Shown: one piece after another, positions 43,805 through 52,471 of the stretch
Layout: each line of letters begins with the position of its first letter
Numbering within the stretch: position 1 is the first letter of the stretch
From: Streptomyces sp. NBC_00536
GTDB taxonomy: Bacteria; Actinomycetota; Actinomycetes; Streptomycetales; Streptomycetaceae
Direction: 5' to 3'
Assembly (NCBI RefSeq): GCF_036346295.1
Contig: NZ_CP107819.1
Location: 620,001 to 684,000, forward strand
DNA length: 64,000 nt
Made by a program: the position numbers and the translations under genes
Notes under the pieces: generated by a model
Told to the model about the DNA's origin: nothing
The model's database searches: none
The model's input: only the letters and a program-made list of their open reading frames with translations

Positions 43805-46477
43805 GTGAACAAGGGGTACGCCGCATTCTGCGACGCAGACCGCTGGTTCTACGACGCGCCGTACCGGCGCGCCGAGGAGAACTACCCGGCCGCGCTCGCC
43901 CCCGTACCCGAGGGGTGGCGCTCCCACCGCAGCGGCGACTGGTACGCCCTGCGCCCGGTCGGCGCCCAACTCCCCTCCCAGGGCTGGAAGATCCACGTGT
44001 CGGCCACGCTCGACAACGCCGGACCGGTCCTGGACCGCGTGTACGCCCACTGCCTCGCCCGGGACATCGCCTTCAAGTTCGTGCCGAGCCGCTACCTGCT
44101 GCACCTGCGCAACGCCAAGTACGCCGACCGCGCGGCCAGCGGCAAGTTCATCACGGTGTACCCCGCCGACGAGGAGCAGTGCCGCCGCATCGCCGAGGAC
44201 CTCGACGCCCTGCTCGCCGGGGAGCCGGGACCGTACATCCTGAGCGACCTGCGCTGGGGAACGGGCCCCGTCCACCTGCGCTACGGGAGCTTCACCCTGC
44301 GGCACTGCTACGACGGGAACGGCGAGCTGGTCCCGGCCGTCGAGGACCCGGCCGGACGGCTGGTCCCCGATGTCCGCGGGCCGGTGTTCCAGCCCCCGGA
44401 GTGGGTCGAGCTGCCGCCCTTCCTGAAGCCGCACCTCGACGCGCGCTCGTCCGTCACGCTCGCCGACATCCCGTACACCGTCGAGCGGGCCCTGCACTTC
44501 TCCAACGGCGGCGGGGTGTACGCCGCCCGGGACGCCCGCACCGGTGAGCCGGTCGTGCTCAAGGAGGCCCGGCCGTACGCGGGGCTCGCCGCCGACGGCG
44601 CGGACGCGGTGGCCCGGCTGCACCGGGAGCGGACCGCGCTGGAACGGCTCGCCGGACTGGACTGCGTCCCCTCCGTCCTCGGCTCCTTCACCGTGGGCGA
44701 CCACCACTTCCTGGCGCTGCAGTACCTGGAGGGCAAGCCCCTCAACACCTACTTCGCCCGCAGGCACCCGCTGATCGAGGCCGACCCCGCGCCCACCGAA
44801 CTCGCGGCCTACACCGAGTGGGCCCTGACGATCCACGAGCGGGTGAGCGCCGCGGTGGCCGCGGTGCACGCCCGCGGGGTGGTCTTCAACGACCTGCACC
44901 TCTTCAACATCATGGTCACCGAGGACGCCGCGGGCCAACCGTCCGTCGCGCTGCTGGACTTCGAGGCCGCCGCCCACGTCGACGAGGGGCTGCGGCAGAC
45001 CGTCGCCAACCCGGCGTTCGTCGCCCCGGCGGGGCGGCGCGGGTTCGCGGTGGACCGCTACGCCCTCGCCTGTCTGCGCCTCGCCCTGTTCCTGCCGCTG
45101 ACGAGCCTGCTCGCCCTGGACCGGGCGAAGGCCGTGCACCTGGCGGCGATCGCCGCGGAGCAGTTCCCGGTACCGCGCCGGTTCCTGGACGAGGCGGTCG
45201 AGGAGATCCTGTCCGGGCCGGATGACGGTGACTCCGGTGGTTCCGGCTCCGGCTCCGGCCGGGCGCCCGGCGGCCGGATTCCGGCTCCCGCGGGACCGTA
45301 CCTGCCCGTCGCGCCCGGGGACTGGCCCGCCGCCCGGGACTCGATGACCGCGGCCCTGCGCGCCTCGGCCACACCCGGCCGGGAGGACCGCCTCTTCCCC
45401 GGGGACATCGCCCAGTTCGGCTCCGAGGGCGGTGGCACCGGCTTCGGGTACGGCGCCGCCGGGGTCCTCTACGCGCTGGCCGAGACCGGCGCCGAACCCT
45501 GGCCGGAGGCCGAGGAGTGGCTGCTGGCACGGACGGCGGAGCCCGGCTCCGGCACCCCGCTCGGCTTCTACGACGGCCTCGCGGGCACCGCCTGGACCCT
45601 GGAGCGGCTCGGCCACCGGGAGCGCGCGCTCGACCTCGCCGAACTGCTGCTGGCACAGCCGTGGCAGGAGGCCGGCCCGGACCTGCACAGCGGGCTCGCG
45701 GGCGTGGGCCTGGCCCTGGACGCGCTGGGCACGGCGACCGGTGAGGGCGCGCTGCACGCGGCGGCCGTGCGCTGCGCCGAACTGGCCGCCCGGGACGGCG
45801 CGGCCCCGCGCCGCGCGGGGCTGCTGTACGGCGGCTCCGGCCCGGCCCTGCTGTTCCTGCGGCTCTACGAACGCACCGGCGAGCGGGAGTACCTGCTCCG
45901 CGCGGGCGAGGCCCTGCACCGCGATCTCGACCGGTGCGTGACCAGCGCCTTCGGCACCCTCCAGGTGGACGAGGGGTGGCGCACCATGCCCTACCTCGGC
46001 GAGGGCAGCGTCGGCATCGGCATGGTGCTGGACGACTGGCTGCGGCACGGCTCCGAGCCGCGCTTCGAGCAGGCCCGGCTGGAGATCGTACGGGCCGCCC
46101 AGGCCACCTTCTACGCGCAGCCCGGGCTGTTCCGCGGCGCCGCCGGGATGGTGCTGTACCTGGCACGGACCACCACCCCGGGTCCCGGCACCCGCGCGGA
46201 CGACCTCGCGCGCCAGATCGACGCCCTGGCCCGGCACGCCGTGCCCTACCAAGGTCATCTGGCCTTCCCCGGCGAGCAGTTGATGCGGCTGTCCATGGAC
46301 CTGTCCACGGGCACCGCCGGAGCACTGCTCGCCCTCGGCAGCGCCGCGCCCGGCGGGCGCGCGCAGCTGCCGTTCCTCCCTCCGCTGCGGCATGCCGCGG
46401 CGGTCCCAGAGCCGGCCCCGCACCACGGGGCCGTGACCCATCGGAACAACCCAGCGAAGAAGAGGAATCTGACATGA
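43805..46477 (+). CDS. ramC: Class III lanthionine synthetase LanKC (RamC/AmfT-like)
   Basis: An 890-residue three-domain enzyme. The N-terminal lyase-like part (about 1-215) starts YAAFCDADRWFYDAPYRR. A kinase domain (about 220-470) has PVVLKEARPYAG, the catalytic loop VFNDLHLFNIMV near residue 360 and LLDFEAAAHVDEG. A Gly/Ser linker at about 478 leads to a LanC-like cyclase domain (about 535-880) with GFYDGLAGTAWTLERLG and YLGEGSVGIGMVLDD. The zinc ligands of true LanC are absent, as expected for class III. It phosphorylates, dehydrates and cyclises the adjacent RamS-like peptide, using it to make a SapB-like surfactant for aerial growth. The GTG at 43805 has GAGGGAG; the stop overlaps ramS (ATGA). 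Confidence 0.95.
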   Translation: MNKGYAAFCDADRWFYDAPYRRAEENYPAALAPVPEGWRSHRSGDWYALRPVGAQLPSQGWKIHVSATLDNAGPVLDRVYAHCLARDIAFKFVPSRYLLHLRNAKYADRAASGKFITVYPADEEQCRRIAEDLDALLAGEPGPYILSDLRWGTGPVHLRYGSFTLRHCYDGNGELVPAVEDPAGRLVPDVRGPVFQPPEWVELPPFLKPHLDARSSVTLADIPYTVERALHFSNGGGVYAARDARTGEPVVLKEARPYAGLAADGADAVARLHRERTALERLAGLDCVPSVLGSFTVGDHHFLALQYLEGKPLNTYFARRHPLIEADPAPTELAAYTEWALTIHERVSAAVAAVHARGVVFNDLHLFNIMVTEDAAGQPSVALLDFEAAAHVDEGLRQTVANPAFVAPAGRRGFAVDRYALACLRLALFLPLTSLLALDRAKAVHLAAIAAEQFPVPRRFLDEAVEEILSGPDDGDSGGSGSGSGRAPGGRIPAPAGPYLPVAPGDWPAARDSMTAALRASATPGREDRLFPGDIAQFGSEGGGTGFGYGAAGVLYALAETGAEPWPEAEEWLLARTAEPGSGTPLGFYDGLAGTAWTLERLGHRERALDLAELLLAQPWQEAGPDLHSGLAGVGLALDALGTATGEGALHAAAVRCAELAARDGAAPRRAGLLYGGSGPALLFLRLYERTGEREYLLRAGEALHRDLDRCVTSAFGTLQVDEGWRTMPYLGEGSVGIGMVLDDWLRHGSEPRFEQARLEIVRAAQATFYAQPGLFRGAAGMVLYLARTTTPGPGTRADDLARQIDALARHAVPYQGHLAFPGEQLMRLSMDLSTGTAGALLALGSAAPGGRAQLPFLPPLRHAAAVPEPAPHHGAVTHRNNPAKKRNLT

Positions 46478-46617
46478 CGCTTCTCGACCTGCAGTCGATG
46501 GAGACCATCAAGGAAGAGTCCACCGAGGCGACCTTCGGCGGTGGCGGCGGTGGCGGCAGCCGGGCCAGCCTGCTGCTCTGCGGGGACAGCAGCCTGAGCA
46601 TCACGACCTGTCACTGA
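46474..46617 (+). CDS. ramS: SapB-like lanthipeptide precursor (RamS/AmfS-like)
   Basis: A 47-residue precursor. The leader MTLLDLQSMETIKEESTEA has the LDLQ(S/A)M motif recognised by class III synthetases. Seven glycines (residues 22-28 after FG) precede the core SRASLLLCGDSSLSITTCH. The core has two Ser-x2-Ser-x3-Cys units, S29/S32/C36 and S39/S42/C46, the (methyl)lanthionine or labionin pattern. From memory the S. coelicolor RamS core is the same except for a final Asn where this has His47, and its linker is shorter. The ATG at 46474 overlaps the ramC stop and has AGAGGA. The mature peptide is a biosurfactant released on the colony surface. Confidence 0.96.
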   Translation: MTLLDLQSMETIKEESTEATFGGGGGGGSRASLLLCGDSSLSITTCH

Positions 46618-46688: not shown

Positions 46689-49600
46689 ATGAACTCGCCC
46701 GACCCGTCCGGTGACCCGTCCGACGGCCCGCCCGACGGCCCGCCCGACGACGCGGCGCTCGCCCGCGGCGGTGACCGTGCCCTGCTGGCGGCGGCCCGCG
46801 ACAGCGCCGGCCGCACCGCCGCCGTCGGCGCCTGCTCGGTCGGCGCCGCCGTGGCGGCCCTCGCCGAACCGGCCGTCCTCGGCCACACCCTCGACCTGCT
46901 GCTGCGCGGGGACCCGGCGGGCCCCGCCTGGACCCTGTGGTGCGCCCTGGCCATCGCGGCGGAAGTGCTGCTGGACGCCACCGTGACCCGGCTGACCGGG
47001 CGGGTGAACGGCCGCTCCACCGCCTGGCTGCGCCGCCTGGGCCTGACCCGGCTGCTCGCCGCCGCCCCGCACCACGCGGGCCGGTACTCCCCCGGCGACG
47101 TCGCCGCCCGGCTGACGGCCCACGCCACCGAGGCCGGGACCGCCCCGGCGGCCGCCGCGGGCGCCCTCGCCTCGCTGCTGCCGCCGCTGGGCGGGCTGGT
47201 GGCGCTCTTCGTCATCGACGTGTGGACCGCCCTCGCCTTCCTGGCCGGACTCCCGCTGCTGGCCTTCCTGTTGCGCTCGTTCGCTCGCGATTCGGCGGCC
47301 AGCGTGACCCGTTACCAGCAGGTCCAGCTGGCGATGGCCGGGCTCCTCGTCGAAGCCCTCGCGGGCGCCCGGACCATCGCCGCCGCCGGTACGCTCCCGC
47401 GCGAACGGGCCAGGATCCTGCGCGAGTTGCCCACCCTGGGCGCCGAGGGGCGGCGGATGTGGCGGGTCTACGGCGGGACCACCGCCCGCACCTCGGCCCT
47501 CATGCCGCTGCTCCTGTACGTGGTCCTCGGCGTGGGCGGCATGCGGCTCGCGGCGGGGGCGCTGGGCGTCGGCGCGCTCCTGGCCGCCGTCCGGTACGCC
47601 GGGCTCGCGGCCGGGGTGGGCGCGGTGACCGGCCGGCTGGCCGCCGTGGTGCGCGGCCGGGCCGCGGCGCGGCGCACGGCCGCCCTGTTCGCCCTGCCGG
47701 ATCTACCGTACGGGACACGGGAGTTGCCGCCCGGCGGGCCCGGCACCCTGGAACTGCGCGGGGTCAGCGTGGTCCGCGACGGCCGGACGGTACTGGACCG
47801 GGTCGACCTCCTCGTGCCGGGCGGTACGACGGTCGCCGTGGTGGGCCGGTCCGGGTCGGGGAAGACCCTGCTCGCGGCGGTGGCGGGGCGCCTCACCGAC
47901 CCGGACGCCGGGCGGGTCCTGCTGGACGGCGTGCCGCTGGCGGAACTGTCCCCACGGGCGCTGCGGCGGGACGTCGGCCACGCCTTCGACCGGCCCGCGC
48001 TGCCGGGGCGGAGCGTCGCCGGGGCGATCGCCTTCGGCGCGGATCCGCGGCCCGGGCGCGGGGAGGTGCGGGCCGCGGCGCGGGCGGCCGGGGCCGACCC
48101 GTTCGTACGGCGCCTGCCCGACGGCTACGACACCCCGCTCGCGGACGCGCCGATGTCCGGGGGCGAGATCCAACGCCTGGGCCTGGCCAGGGCCTTCGCC
48201 CGTGCCGGGCGCCTCCTCATCCTCGACGACGCGACCTCCAGCCTGGACACGCTCACCGCACGCGAGGTCGAACGGTCCCTGGCCGAGCGGGTCCGCCCCG
48301 GCACCCGCCTGGTCGTCACGCACCGCGTCTCCTCGGCGGCCCGCGCCGACCGGGTCGTCTGGCTGGACGACGGCCGCGTCCGGGCCTCCGGCACCCACGC
48401 CACCCTCTGGCACGACCCCGCCTACCGCGCGGTGTTCGCAGCGCCCGAGCCTTCGGCACCGCCCCCCCGACCCGCCCCGAAGACCCCGGCCCCCGGCCCC
48501 CGGCCCGGTACCGGGCCGCTGCCCCCGCCCCAGCGGAGCCGGACCGGCCTTCCGGCGACACCGACGGCGTCAGCGATCGATCCGCGAGCGCCCGAGGCCG
48601 TCCCCGGGCCCGGGGCCCGCCCAGCGCTCGGGCCAACCAGCACCGGTCGCCCCGCGGAGTCGGCCGCTTCGGGAGCGCCCGGACCCGGGGTCGGCCCGGG
48701 GCCGCAGCCCGGGCCCGGGCCGCTGACCGCGCCCGAGCGGAGCTGGACCGGCCTTCCGGCGACGCCAACGGTGTCAGCGGTCGATCCGCGAGTGCCCGAG
48801 ACCGCCCCCGGGCCCGGGCCCGGAGCCCGCACAGCACTCCGGCCGCCCAGGACCGGCCGTCCAGCGGGGCCGGCCGCTCCGGGGGCGCCCGGGCGCGAGG
48901 CCGGACCCGGGCCGCAGTCCGGGACCGGGCAGGAGGCCGAGACCGGGCCGCAAGCCCGACCCGGGCCACAGGCCGGGACCCGGCCGGAAGCCGGGACCGG
49001 GCCGCAAGCCGAGACCGAGCCACAGGCCGGACCCGGACGGGAAGCCGGGACCGGGCCGCAAGCCGGACCCGGGCGCGGGGCCGGACCCGGCACAGCGCTC
49101 CGGCCTGGCGGGGCCCCGCGCCCGGCCGATCCGAAGACGCCGGGACCCGGGCCCGGCTCCGGGCCCGAGGCCGAGCACGCGGCAGCGGCAGCAAGCCGGG
49201 ACCACGCCGGGCCACGGGCCTCGCTCCCGTCGGACAGCGGGGTCGGTCAGCCAGCGGGGTCGGCCGCTCCAGAGGCGCCCGATCCCGGACCCGGACCCGG
49301 GGTCGGGGTCGGGGTCGGGGCCGGGGCCGGGGCCGGGGTCGGGGCCGGGGCCGGGGCGGAGGCCGGGGCGGAGGCCGGGGCGGAGGCCGGGGTCGGGGCC
49401 GGGGCCGGGCCGGAGGCCGGGGGCCCCACGGGGGTCCGGCCGGGGGCTTCGGGGGCGGGCCGCCGGGCCGCCGGGCACGGGGTTCGCCGGGACCACGTCG
49501 GGCCACGGGCCGCGCTCCGGCCGGTCGGCACCGGTCGGCCGGTGGGGTCGGCCGCTTCGGAGGCGGCGCCAGCCATCCCGGAGGCGCCCGGACCCGGGAT

Positions 49601-51521
49601 CGGGCCGGGGGCCGGGCCGGAGGCCGGGCCCCGCAGGGGGCACCGACCGGGCGGGGCCGGGCGCCCGGGGGCTCCAGGGGCGGGCCGCGGGGAGCCCCGT
49701 GTGGCCGGGACCCCCGTGGGAGCGGGGCATGAACCCGCCCGCCGCCGGGGCATGTGGCGGCGGGTCGGGGGTGAGGGGCGGCGGTTCCTGCGGGGGCGGC
49801 TGCGGGCGTTGGGGGCGCTCGCGCTCTGGTCGCTGCTGGAGTCGGCCCACACCTTCCTCGGGGGCTACGGCGTCGCCCGCGCCCTCGACGACGGGTTCCT
49901 CGCCGGGCGCCTCGGCACCGGCGCCGCCTGGCTGGCGGCCGCGGGAGCCGGGGCGCTGCTCGGCGGTGTCGCGCTGCGCGGGGTGTTCGGCGCCCTCGCG
50001 GAACTCGTCGAACCCCTGCGGGACGGGCTCGTCCGCCGGGCCGTGCGGCACGCCCTGAGCGCGGCGGTCGCCGATCCCGCGCGGGCCGCCGACGCGAGCG
50101 CGGTGTCCCGGCTGACCCAGCAGACCGAGATGGCCCGCGACTCCTTCGCCGGACTGGTCCTGACGGCCCGCTCGTTCCTCTTCACCGCCGTCGGCGCGCT
50201 GCTCGGCATGGCGGCGCTGGCGCCCGTACTGCTCCTCGTGGCCGTGCCCCCGCTGCTGCTGGGGCTGGCCGTCTTCCTGGCCACGCTGCGCCCCATGGCG
50301 GCCGTACAGCGGGAGGCCCTGGACACGGACGAGGCGCTCGCCGCGCGGGTGGGCGAGGTGGCGGCCGGGCTGCGCGACATCGTGGCCTGCGGCGGCGCCG
50401 CCGATGCCGCGGCGCGGGTGGAACCGCTCATCGCCGCGCAGGAGCGGCTGACGGCCCGGCTCGCCCGCTGGGGGGCCGTACGGACGCTGGCCCTCGGCAT
50501 GGCCGGCCGGGCGCCGGTCGTCGCCCTGCTCGCCGCCACGCCCTGGCTGCTCGGCCGCGGAATGACGGCGGGGGCGCTGGCCGGTGCGCTGACGTATCTG
50601 ACGCAGTCGCTGCTGCCCGCGCTCGACACCCTGATGGCGGCGCTCGGTTCGGCGGGGACGCGGCTGCTGGTGGTGCTGGACCGCTTCTGCGGACCGGAGC
50701 CGACGGGGACCCGTTCCGGTGCGGAGCCGGGTGCCCCGGCCCCGGCCTGGCGGCCCGCGGCGGACGCGGCCGCCGAACTCCACGGCGTGGGCTTCGCGTA
50801 CGGGCCCCACGCGCACCCGGTGCTGGACGGGCTCGACCTGACCGTCCGGTCCGGCGAGCACCTCGCCGTGGTGGGGCCCAGCGGGATCGGGAAGTCCACG
50901 CTCACCGCCCTCCTGGCGGGCCTGCTGCCGCCCGACCGGGGCACGGTCCTCGTGGCCGGAACACCCGCCGGAACGCACGGCCCGGCAGGCGGCCGGGGCC
51001 CGGACCCGCGGCGCACGCTCCTGCCGCAGCAGGCGTACGTGTTCACCGGCACCGTACGCGAGAACCTCACCCACCTGTGCCCGGAACCGGGCCCCGGCGG
51101 CGTGCCGACGGCGCGCGTGGAGGCGGTGGTGGCCGCCCTGGGGCTGGAGGCGCTCCTCGGGAGGCTCGGCGGCCTGGACGCCGTGGTCGACCCCGCGCGG
51201 CTCTCGCAGGGCGAACGGCAGCTGCTCGCGCTCGGCGCGGCGCACCTGTCCCCCGCTCCGCTGCTCCTGCTCGACGAGGCCACCTGCCACCTCGACGCGG
51301 AGACCGAGGAGCGGGCGGAGCGGGCCCTGGCGGCGCGCCCCGGCACGCTGGTGGTGGTGGCCCACCGGATCTCCTCGGCCGCCCGCGCCGACCGGGTGCT
51401 CGTCCTGGACGGCACCCGGGCGGTGTGCGGGACGCACGCGGAACTCCCGGCACGGTCGGCCCTGTACCGGGACCTCGTCGGGATGTGGAGCGCCGCGGAC
51501 GGCGCGGCCGGGTCGCGCTGA
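46689..51521 (+). CDS. RamA-RamB ABC exporter fused in one frame with a ~430-residue repeat linker
   Basis: An uninterrupted 1,610-codon frame. Residues 1 to about 588 form a complete ABC exporter half (RamA/AmfB-like): six-helix region, Walker A GRSGSGKT near 386, signature MSGGEIQRLGLARA, Walker B LLILDDATSSLD. Residues about 589-1021 are Gly/Pro/Ala/Glu-rich repeats. From Met1022 (MWRRVGGEGRRF) a second half (RamB/AmfA-like) follows, with Walker A GPSGIGKST near 1396, LSQGERQLLALG and LLLLDEATCHLD. It exports the SapB-like peptide. ramA and ramB are separate genes in known loci. The ATG at 46689 (GGAG 12 bases upstream) or GTG at 46680 may be the start. A GTG at 49701 with GGGGAG upstream could start RamB separately inside the frame. 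Confidence 0.85.
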   Translation: MNSPDPSGDPSDGPPDGPPDDAALARGGDRALLAAARDSAGRTAAVGACSVGAAVAALAEPAVLGHTLDLLLRGDPAGPAWTLWCALAIAAEVLLDATVTRLTGRVNGRSTAWLRRLGLTRLLAAAPHHAGRYSPGDVAARLTAHATEAGTAPAAAAGALASLLPPLGGLVALFVIDVWTALAFLAGLPLLAFLLRSFARDSAASVTRYQQVQLAMAGLLVEALAGARTIAAAGTLPRERARILRELPTLGAEGRRMWRVYGGTTARTSALMPLLLYVVLGVGGMRLAAGALGVGALLAAVRYAGLAAGVGAVTGRLAAVVRGRAAARRTAALFALPDLPYGTRELPPGGPGTLELRGVSVVRDGRTVLDRVDLLVPGGTTVAVVGRSGSGKTLLAAVAGRLTDPDAGRVLLDGVPLAELSPRALRRDVGHAFDRPALPGRSVAGAIAFGADPRPGRGEVRAAARAAGADPFVRRLPDGYDTPLADAPMSGGEIQRLGLARAFARAGRLLILDDATSSLDTLTAREVERSLAERVRPGTRLVVTHRVSSAARADRVVWLDDGRVRASGTHATLWHDPAYRAVFAAPEPSAPPPRPAPKTPAPGPRPGTGPLPPPQRSRTGLPATPTASAIDPRAPEAVPGPGARPALGPTSTGRPAESAASGAPGPGVGPGPQPGPGPLTAPERSWTGLPATPTVSAVDPRVPETAPGPGPGARTALRPPRTGRPAGPAAPGAPGREAGPGPQSGTGQEAETGPQARPGPQAGTRPEAGTGPQAETEPQAGPGREAGTGPQAGPGRGAGPGTALRPGGAPRPADPKTPGPGPGSGPEAEHAAAAASRDHAGPRASLPSDSGVGQPAGSAAPEAPDPGPGPGVGVGVGAGAGAGVGAGAGAEAGAEAGAEAGVGAGAGPEAGGPTGVRPGASGAGRRAAGHGVRRDHVGPRAALRPVGTGRPVGSAASEAAPAIPEAPGPGIGPGAGPEAGPRRGHRPGGAGRPGAPGAGRGEPRVAGTPVGAGHEPARRRGMWRRVGGEGRRFLRGRLRALGALALWSLLESAHTFLGGYGVARALDDGFLAGRLGTGAAWLAAAGAGALLGGVALRGVFGALAELVEPLRDGLVRRAVRHALSAAVADPARAADASAVSRLTQQTEMARDSFAGLVLTARSFLFTAVGALLGMAALAPVLLLVAVPPLLLGLAVFLATLRPMAAVQREALDTDEALAARVGEVAAGLRDIVACGGAADAAARVEPLIAAQERLTARLARWGAVRTLALGMAGRAPVVALLAATPWLLGRGMTAGALAGALTYLTQSLLPALDTLMAALGSAGTRLLVVLDRFCGPEPTGTRSGAEPGAPAPAWRPAADAAAELHGVGFAYGPHAHPVLDGLDLTVRSGEHLAVVGPSGIGKSTLTALLAGLLPPDRGTVLVAGTPAGTHGPAGGRGPDPRRTLLPQQAYVFTGTVRENLTHLCPEPGPGGVPTARVEAVVAALGLEALLGRLGGLDAVVDPARLSQGERQLLALGAAHLSPAPLLLLDEATCHLDAETEERAERALAARPGTLVVVAHRISSAARADRVLVLDGTRAVCGTHAELPARSALYRDLVGMWSAADGAAGSR
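48533..48940 (+). repeat. 204-bp tandem duplication in the RamA-RamB linker
   Basis: Blocks starting at 48533 and 48737 both begin GCGGAG(C/C)(C/T)GGACCGGCCTTCC and encode RSxTGLPATPTxSAxDPR followed by Pro/Gly-rich sequence and TGRP. The period is 204 bp, exactly 68 codons, so the frame is kept. Degenerate further copies (GPRASL, GPRAALRP with TGRP) occur to about 49590. Confidence 0.75.
49299..49406 (+). repeat. GGGGYC hexanucleotide array inside the linker
   Basis: Nine consecutive hexamers GGGGTC or GGGGCC (49299-49352), three 12-mers GGGGCGGAGGCC (49353-49388), then three more hexamers to 49406. All units are multiples of three, giving Gly-Val/Gly-Ala and GAEA dipeptide repeats. The coding strand can form stacked G-quadruplexes. 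Confidence 0.85.
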
Positions 51522-51556: not shown

Positions 51557-52165
51557 CTACACCCAGCCCGCGCTGCGCGAGATGCGTATCGCGTCGATGC
51601 GGTTGCGCGCGCCGGTCTTGCGGGTGACGGCGGCCATGTAGTTGCGGACGGTGCCGCTGGCCAGGTGCAGGGCGCGGGCGATCTCGGCGATCGAGTCGCC
51701 CTCCGCGGCGCGGGCCAGGACGCTGAGTTCGCGCGGGCTGAGCGGCACCGGGTCGGCCTCCATGAAGGCCGAGGCGAGCGAGGCGTCGATGAACCGTTCG
51801 CCCGCGGCGACCTTGCGGACGGCGCGGACGAGCTGCCCCGGCGAGCCGTCCTTGTCGACGTACCCGAGGGCCTTCGCCCGGAAGGCGCGGCCGAGCGTGC
51901 CGGGGGTCCCGGCCGTGGCCAGGACGAGCAGCGGGGTCGGCGGGTCCAGTGGCCTCCGGTCGGTGTGCCCCTCAGCCGCGAGGACGGCCGTGGCACCCGG
52001 ACAGTCGAAGTCGACGACCGCCACGTCTGGTCGTAAGGACTCGGCCCGGCGCGCCGCCGACCTCCACCCCGCGGACGTGACGTCGAACTGCCCTTCGGAT
52101 CTCAGGAGAGCGGCCAGGGCCGACCCTACGAGGCTGACGCTGTGCAGTACGAGGACCTTCGTCAT
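51557..52165 (-). CDS. ramR: Orphan response regulator RamR/AmfR-like, with a TTA codon
   Basis: A 202-residue NarL/FixJ-type regulator. The receiver starts MTKVLVLHSVSLVGSALAAL, where the usual acidic pair is replaced by neutral residues. VAVVDFDCPG gives Asp52/Asp54, and the conserved lysine is in GYVDKDGSPGQ. The C-terminal helix-turn-helix is LSPRELSVLARAAEGDSIAE then SGTVRNYMAAVTRKTGA. RamR activates the ram operon; no sensor kinase is adjacent. The ATG at 52165 follows GGAGAG. Leu44 is TTA (complement of 52034-52036), so synthesis should need the bldA tRNA. It is convergent with the transporter gene. Confidence 0.92.
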   Translation of the reverse strand: MTKVLVLHSVSLVGSALAALLRSEGQFDVTSAGWRSAARRAESLRPDVAVVDFDCPGATAVLAAEGHTDRRPLDPPTPLLVLATAGTPGTLGRAFRAKALGYVDKDGSPGQLVRAVRKVAAGERFIDASLASAFMEADPVPLSPRELSVLARAAEGDSIAEIARALHLASGTVRNYMAAVTRKTGARNRIDAIRISRSAGWV

Positions 52166-52471
52166 GGGGACTCTCCAGGGGACGGGCGGGTGCGGCATGG
52201 ACCGATCAGCACCTTGCGGCTGCCCCGGGACCACCCTGCCGGAACGTCACGTCCGGGGGCGTGCGGGGGCGCATGGCCGTAAACGGGCGCCTCCCGAGTG
52301 CTCCCGCACGCCTCACCGCTGACCACTCACCCCCGTCCGCCCCACGCCGTCTCGCGCCGTCTCGCGGATACGGCCGAATCCCACCCCTCCCCCGGTCCCG
52401 TCCATCCGCGCGAACGATGCCGACAGGCGTTCGAGTGCGGCCGGGCGCCCCGTCGCCGGCGGCCGCCGGGC
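52166..52471. other. 306-bp region upstream of ramR
   Basis: This gap separates the ramR start from the end of the same-strand membrane protein gene. It must hold the ramR promoter, read leftward. I see no clear -35/-10 pair, strong dyad or small gene in it. Confidence 0.4.

Follow-up and report, generated by a model that had tools for sequence, protein, structure and literature searches.

The question raised by this locus is whether the two half-exporters RamA and RamB, ordinarily the products of two genes, are made here as a single chain. In the window, i.e. the whole stretch of 64,000 nucleotides analysed from Streptomyces sp. NBC_00536, a single ORF runs from ATG 46689 to TGA 51519-51521 without any internal stop codon and encodes 1610 amino acids counted from the ATG, in agreement with the stop-free frame reported in the preliminary description. 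The order TMD-NBD-TMD-NBD, typical of single-chain full ABC exporters, is thus present within one reading frame. The features referred to below are as follows (window positions).

43805..46477, + strand: ramC, class III lanthionine synthetase LanKC (NF038151)
46474..46617, + strand: ramS, precursor peptide of the SapB/AmfS family, 47 aa (NF033212)
46689..48437, + strand: RamA half (aa 1-583), membrane domain and degenerate-type NBD
48438..49751, + strand: linker (aa 584-1021, 438 aa), low-complexity in-frame repeats; positional counterpart of the variable C-terminal tail of unfused RamA
48439..49297, + strand: opening section of the linker; lacks a codon-position signature and is scored as non-coding-like by a simple codon-position HMM
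49297..49422, + strand: CCGGGG 6-bp repeat array in the linker, 21 copies (tandem-repeat listing)
49701..49703, + strand: candidate internal RamB start GTG with GGGGAG ahead; nearby in-frame starts are GTG 49716 and ATG 49752
49729..49732, + strand: ATGA just ahead of RamB, out of frame with both halves
49752..51521, + strand: RamB half (aa 1022-1610 and stop), membrane domain and consensus-type NBD
51557..52234, - strand: LuxR/GerE-type regulator, convergent, in the ramR position (domain match and published ramR layout)

An earlier in-frame start, GTG 46680, lies upstream of ATG 46689. Since six of the seven fused relatives introduced below begin with MTSPD and one with MISTG, ATG 46689 is the likelier start. 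Near the beginning of RamA, a 12-bp tandem repeat of 2.9 copies (46715-46749) coincides with a 12-residue insertion absent from the seven fused relatives, a second low-complexity expansion in this gene. Elsewhere in the window, at 1677-2264, the codon-position HMM switches among the three forward frames within about 600 bp, perhaps because a gene is disrupted there or several short genes overlap.

The genomic neighbourhood is that of RamAB/AmfAB exporters, the fused gene being located directly downstream of ramC and ramS. Both genes matched their family models well above the cut-offs (ramC 1143 bits, cut-off 575; ramS 70.9 bits, cut-off 25), and the order ramCSAB with convergent ramR described in PMC10090380 is the same as here. 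What departs from RamAB/AmfAB is the one open frame in place of two separate genes, which is a trait of layout and not of homology. No second RamB match was found in this genome at E ≤ 1e-100. From the gene context, the exported substrate would be the RamC-modified RamS (SapB-like) peptide. As for RamS itself, its 47 residues compare with 42 positions in the family model, and seven consecutive glycines, as judged by visual inspection of the DNA, stand just ahead of the conserved SRASLLLCGDSS part. The ramC stop and ramS start overlap as ATGA (46474-46477), the same coupling as between ramA and ramB in unfused relatives.

Next to Walker A, signature and Walker B, all of which were located in each half as previously claimed, the H-loop was found as well. 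In RamA these are Walker A at aa 386, signature MSGGE at aa 489, Walker B LLILDD at aa 509 and the H-loop His at aa 545; in RamB they are Walker A at aa 1396, signature LSQGE at aa 1505, Walker B LLLLDE at aa 1525 and the H-loop His at aa 1559. All 98 RamA relatives compared have Asp at the catalytic position and all 94 RamB relatives have Glu, as do the respective halves of the window protein. Among the signatures listed, those of RamA read [LM]SGGE, and those of RamB varied (LSQGE, LSRGE, LSAGE, LSLGE, LSPGE). Asp in place of the catalytic Glu is a mark of a degenerate ATP site. Judged by these residues, RamA and RamB are an asymmetric pair, as in heterodimeric exporters with one degenerate ATP site; in TM287/288, for example, one ATP site binds ATP without hydrolysing it (PMC6529423). 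The working ATP site would join the RamB Walker motifs to the RamA signature. The two halves should therefore associate as a heterodimer, and the fusion would fix this pairing at 1:1.

The membrane domains are less uniform in their matches. RamA scored above the cut-off of the Pfam ABC_membrane model and RamB below it (19 versus 28 bits), while RamB matched MsbA-type half-exporter models over most of its length with scores under the curated cut-offs. Long helices were predicted ahead of each NBD in AlphaFold models of low to moderate confidence (pTM 0.53 and 0.49), which are too weak for domain geometry and account for the poor global superpositions. In fold searches, both halves fell among MsbA, TmrAB and TM287/288, and the best solved relatives of RamB by sequence were full transporters of the P-glycoprotein type.

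Matches to both RamA and RamB at more than 44% identity were found at 114 loci, and 100 distinct loci, the window included, remained after removal of 14 duplicates; this count rests on the RamA and RamB matches, not on a ramC/ramS neighbourhood. In these 100 loci the RamA and RamB counterparts lie side by side, with RamA identities of up to 86%. In 92 of them, the ramA stop is part of an NTGA that also provides a ramB-frame start codon, at some loci well ahead of the aligned RamB start. Six others have separate genes in a different arrangement (L055, L078, L079, L091, L101, L125), and only the window and Streptomyces sp. G-G2 are fused. The two-gene state that had been taken as usual is thus confirmed for 98 of the 100 distinct loci. 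As 92 loci carry the NTGA with the ramB-frame start, the fusion removed a real boundary. Moreover, the two genes are read in different frames in the NTGA layout, and therefore the fusion needs both loss of the stop and a change of frame. The place where this could happen is itself variable: the C-terminal tail of RamA in the 98 unfused loci measures 2 to 239 aa (median 29, with at least 100 aa in nine of them), and in the protein P0009 it extends 479 aa past the RamA core. The linker is best read as the hypervariable C-terminal tail of RamA with the ramA/ramB boundary lost.

The preliminary description had proposed looking for the same fusion in related genomes. With the full chain as query, about 5.8 billion proteins were searched, and 7986 candidates within 0.55 to 1.75 times the query length were scored. 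There were 192 matches at E ≤ 0.001, and the best 120 of these 192 included seven further fused proteins of 1222-1258 aa. They belong to Streptomyces sp. NPDC002138, NPDC006529, NPDC098789, NPDC051555, NPDC059917, PvR034 and G-G2 (P0002-P0008) and have no more specific database names than ABC transporter or ATP-binding cassette protein. Their RamA parts are 86-90% and their RamB parts 83-88% identical to those of the window, and all eight aligned fused proteins have the same architecture. The linkers of the seven relatives comprise 61-95 aa, so the giant linker is known only from the window; hardly any linker sequence is common to the eight, with few scattered invariant columns.

On the RamA tree (130 rows), the eight fused proteins formed one clade explained by one change (SH-aLRT 98), and none of the other 122 rows, taken as unfused by length and including a few records marked partial, fell inside it. 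The RamB tree (68 rows) also grouped the eight together with a single change, at a weak branch support of 38. Both trees came from quick searches and were midpoint-rooted. With eight fused proteins in one clade, a one-off sequencing accident can be rejected, and we regard the gene fusion as very likely real.

Other long ABC matches were considered as further fusions. When both halves were compared over 121 proteins, of which 31 were viewed closely (P0001-P0022 and P0113-P0121), only P0001-P0008, with the window protein as P0001, matched both halves closely among these 31; the other 90 showed at most 44% identity. P0009, P0010 and P0012 match RamA over their first half and carry tails of about 380-480 aa that are not fused to RamB; on visual inspection, the P0010 tail seems to be out of frame. 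P0011 (46%/39%) was rejected because it looks frame-broken by eye, as were P0022 and P0113. In P0022 (Streptomyces griseomycini) the annotated chain combines a RamC and a RamA part and includes stretches that look out of frame, probably through frame errors. No further fused pair was present among loci L098-L128, for which one source fetch gave loci for 30 of its matches. Among the literature matches listed, no title or abstract opening dealt with a RamA-RamB fusion.

We then asked what the linker DNA says about translation; these tests cover the window and G-G2, and the other six fused relatives were compared as proteins. The window linker of 438 aa is 63% Gly, Pro and Ala. Its repeats had been described as consisting of G and C only, which did not hold, as 198 of 1308 linker bases are A or T. 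It had also been argued that all repeat periods are multiples of three and that the frame was therefore kept through expansions. This applies to the periods of all nine tandem-repeat entries between 46000 and 52500, of which seven lie within the linker. However, the gaps between diverged copies are often not multiples of three, and the supposed 204-bp period appeared as a spacing of 210 bp between anchor points with two 6-bp gaps. The multiples-of-three argument for translation is consequently weaker than it was first made out to be. The caution that openness alone is weak evidence proved justified: of 2000 shuffled linkers, 10% had no stop in a given frame. It is the recurrence of this fusion in the seven relatives that lifts it above chance.

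The codon composition of the window linker is of limited help. A or T occurs at codon positions 1, 2 and 3 in 51, 79 and 68 cases (of 436 each), and the excess at position 2 is weak, being equalled in extremity by 427 of 20000 permutations. Mismatches in the closest pair of repeat copies (13, 7 and 12 by codon position) gave no useful codon pattern. By the simple codon-position HMM, 48439-49297 resembles non-coding DNA, and coding in the RamB frame extends over 49298-51500, which leaves the first ~860 bp of the linker without a codon-position signature. Among the long tails of unfused relatives, those of L038, L026 and L022 are equally flat though each ends at an NTGA, and those of L068 and L115 are not flat; pooled unfused tails have a mild excess of A/T at position 2 (0.17, 0.26 and 0.16). 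As some unfused long tails are flat and others are not, flatness says little either way, and the first ~860 bp are weakly against the single-chain reading or uninformative. The 82-codon linker of G-G2 (locus L032, the same protein as P0008) is quite different: it contains no in-frame ATG, GTG, TTG or CTG and no TGA, and A or T falls at its codon positions 5, 19 and 0 times (matched in extremity by one of 20000 permutations). The fused frame thus shows a strong coding bias in the G-G2 linker and a weak one in that of the window. Because in-frame start codons and third-position A/T are both absent, a separate RamB start in G-G2 is unlikely.

These data bear on three other ways of explaining the ORF. 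One message could give two proteins acting as separate subunits, either by linker cleavage or from an internal start (GTG 49701 after GGGGAG, GTG 49716 or ATG 49752). The start at GTG 49701 is the alternative already named in the preliminary description. The window linker does hold six in-frame start codons, one of which has a purine-rich site at plausible spacing, and separate genes are the rule in 98 of 100 distinct loci. However, GGGGAG-like strings are to be expected in such GC-rich DNA (an expectation, not a count), the linkers of the seven fused relatives contain no Met, and that of G-G2 is devoid of any in-frame codon of the four usual start kinds. In P0002, known from the protein alone, a Val directly precedes the RamB Trp, so that an internal GTG start is possible there. 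On balance, we consider production of two proteins unlikely, though it is the most plausible of the three. Still less probable is that the genes are truly separate, with an assembly error or recent indel in the GC-rich repeats and with ATGA 49729 as the true overlap. The codon for the conserved RamB Trp starts 23 bases past the end of this ATGA, within the range of mostly 15 to 27 of close unfused relatives, but their distances are multiples of three. The flat codon signature over most of the linker and the existence of indel-ridden look-alikes in the database (P0011, P0022 and P0113, as seen by eye) would also fit. Yet this explanation needs two frame changes that by chance left the frame open, it concerns a member of a clade in which all eight known members are fused, and it invokes error in an assembly of four contigs and 100% completeness, where the surrounding coding segments are mostly long by the codon-position HMM. 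The ATGA may be a relic of the stop/start overlap or due to chance.

We find it hardly credible that the fused protein is produced as an inactive or decaying exporter whose linker grows unconstrained. Linker length and sequence are indeed hardly constrained over the eight fused proteins, but ATP-site motifs are kept in both halves, the halves are 83-90% identical to those of fused relatives, and both ramC and ramS accompany the gene, each matching its family.

We therefore favour, with good though not complete confidence, a gene for a single-chain full-length RamA-RamB exporter, i.e. the usual heterodimer in one polypeptide, which arose once in a Streptomyces sub-clade. This reading, preferred from the beginning, is supported by the clade of eight proteins and by the G-G2 linker with its strong coding bias and lack of in-frame starts. 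It is likely that one intact chain is made in the cell, ordered as TMD-NBD (RamA), a disordered-type linker and TMD-NBD (RamB); this chain would move the RamC-modified RamS peptide out of the cell. According to this model, the ramA/ramB stop/start overlap was lost once in the sub-clade. Both stop loss and frame change could have occurred in the RamA tail, where the frames would be brought into register. Afterwards, in the window genome, repeats would have expanded the tail, probably from fewer than 100 to 438 residues. The initial notion of a fusion brought about by the repeat linker must be dropped, as relatives are fused through linkers of 61-95 aa and unfused RamA tails are already variable. 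The linker presumably serves as a passive tether. A function of its own is possible but unsupported; that the 438-aa linker regulates or localises the SapB exporter (e.g. by phosphorylation or condensation), with repeat-driven length tuning export between strains, seems quite doubtful.

Compared with known systems, the closest is RamA/RamB (AmfA/AmfB) of the S. coelicolor ramCSAB operon, which has the same order after ramC and ramS, the same two half-exporters and the convergent regulator. There, RamA of 635 aa and RamB of 608 aa (PMC10090380) are encoded by two genes, whereas the window has one gene with a 438-aa linker. The heterodimeric type IV exporters with one degenerate site, TM287/288, TmrAB and IrtAB, resemble both halves in fold and RamB in sequence and share the asymmetric catalytic residues with RamA/RamB, but consist of two chains. 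Type IV exporters of Bacillus subtilis are described as homodimers or two-protein heterodimers (PMC11466899). Single-chain exporters, both of the P-glycoprotein type and bacterial (e.g. P0120, named CydCD), have the order TMD-NBD-linker-TMD-NBD in common with the window protein but are not its close sequence relatives; several Streptomyces ABC proteins of about 1250 aa match both halves twice. P-glycoprotein is a full-length exporter in one chain, with a linker shorter than the unconserved one of the window. The CFTR R domain and other regulatory linkers between NBD1 and TMD2 represent long disordered-type inserts at the same chain position. The CFTR linker has about 200 residues and is phosphoregulated, and phosphorylation or condensation is described for the CFTR and Rv1747 linkers (PMC13257379). 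In contrast to the R domain, hardly any sequence is common to the eight fused linkers, whose alignment contained no R-domain-like conserved sites pointing to regulation.

What is new here is the clade-level fusion of a known exporter and the unusually long linker in one of its members, giving a natural range of linker lengths from 61 to 438 aa in one exporter. To our knowledge, there is little direct biochemistry on the step of SapB export; if the chain is made intact, RamA and RamB would pair 1:1, which could be used for studying it. Overlapping genes with a variable tail, a short-linker fusion and a very long linker can be arranged as ordered states toward a single chain resembling P-glycoprotein.
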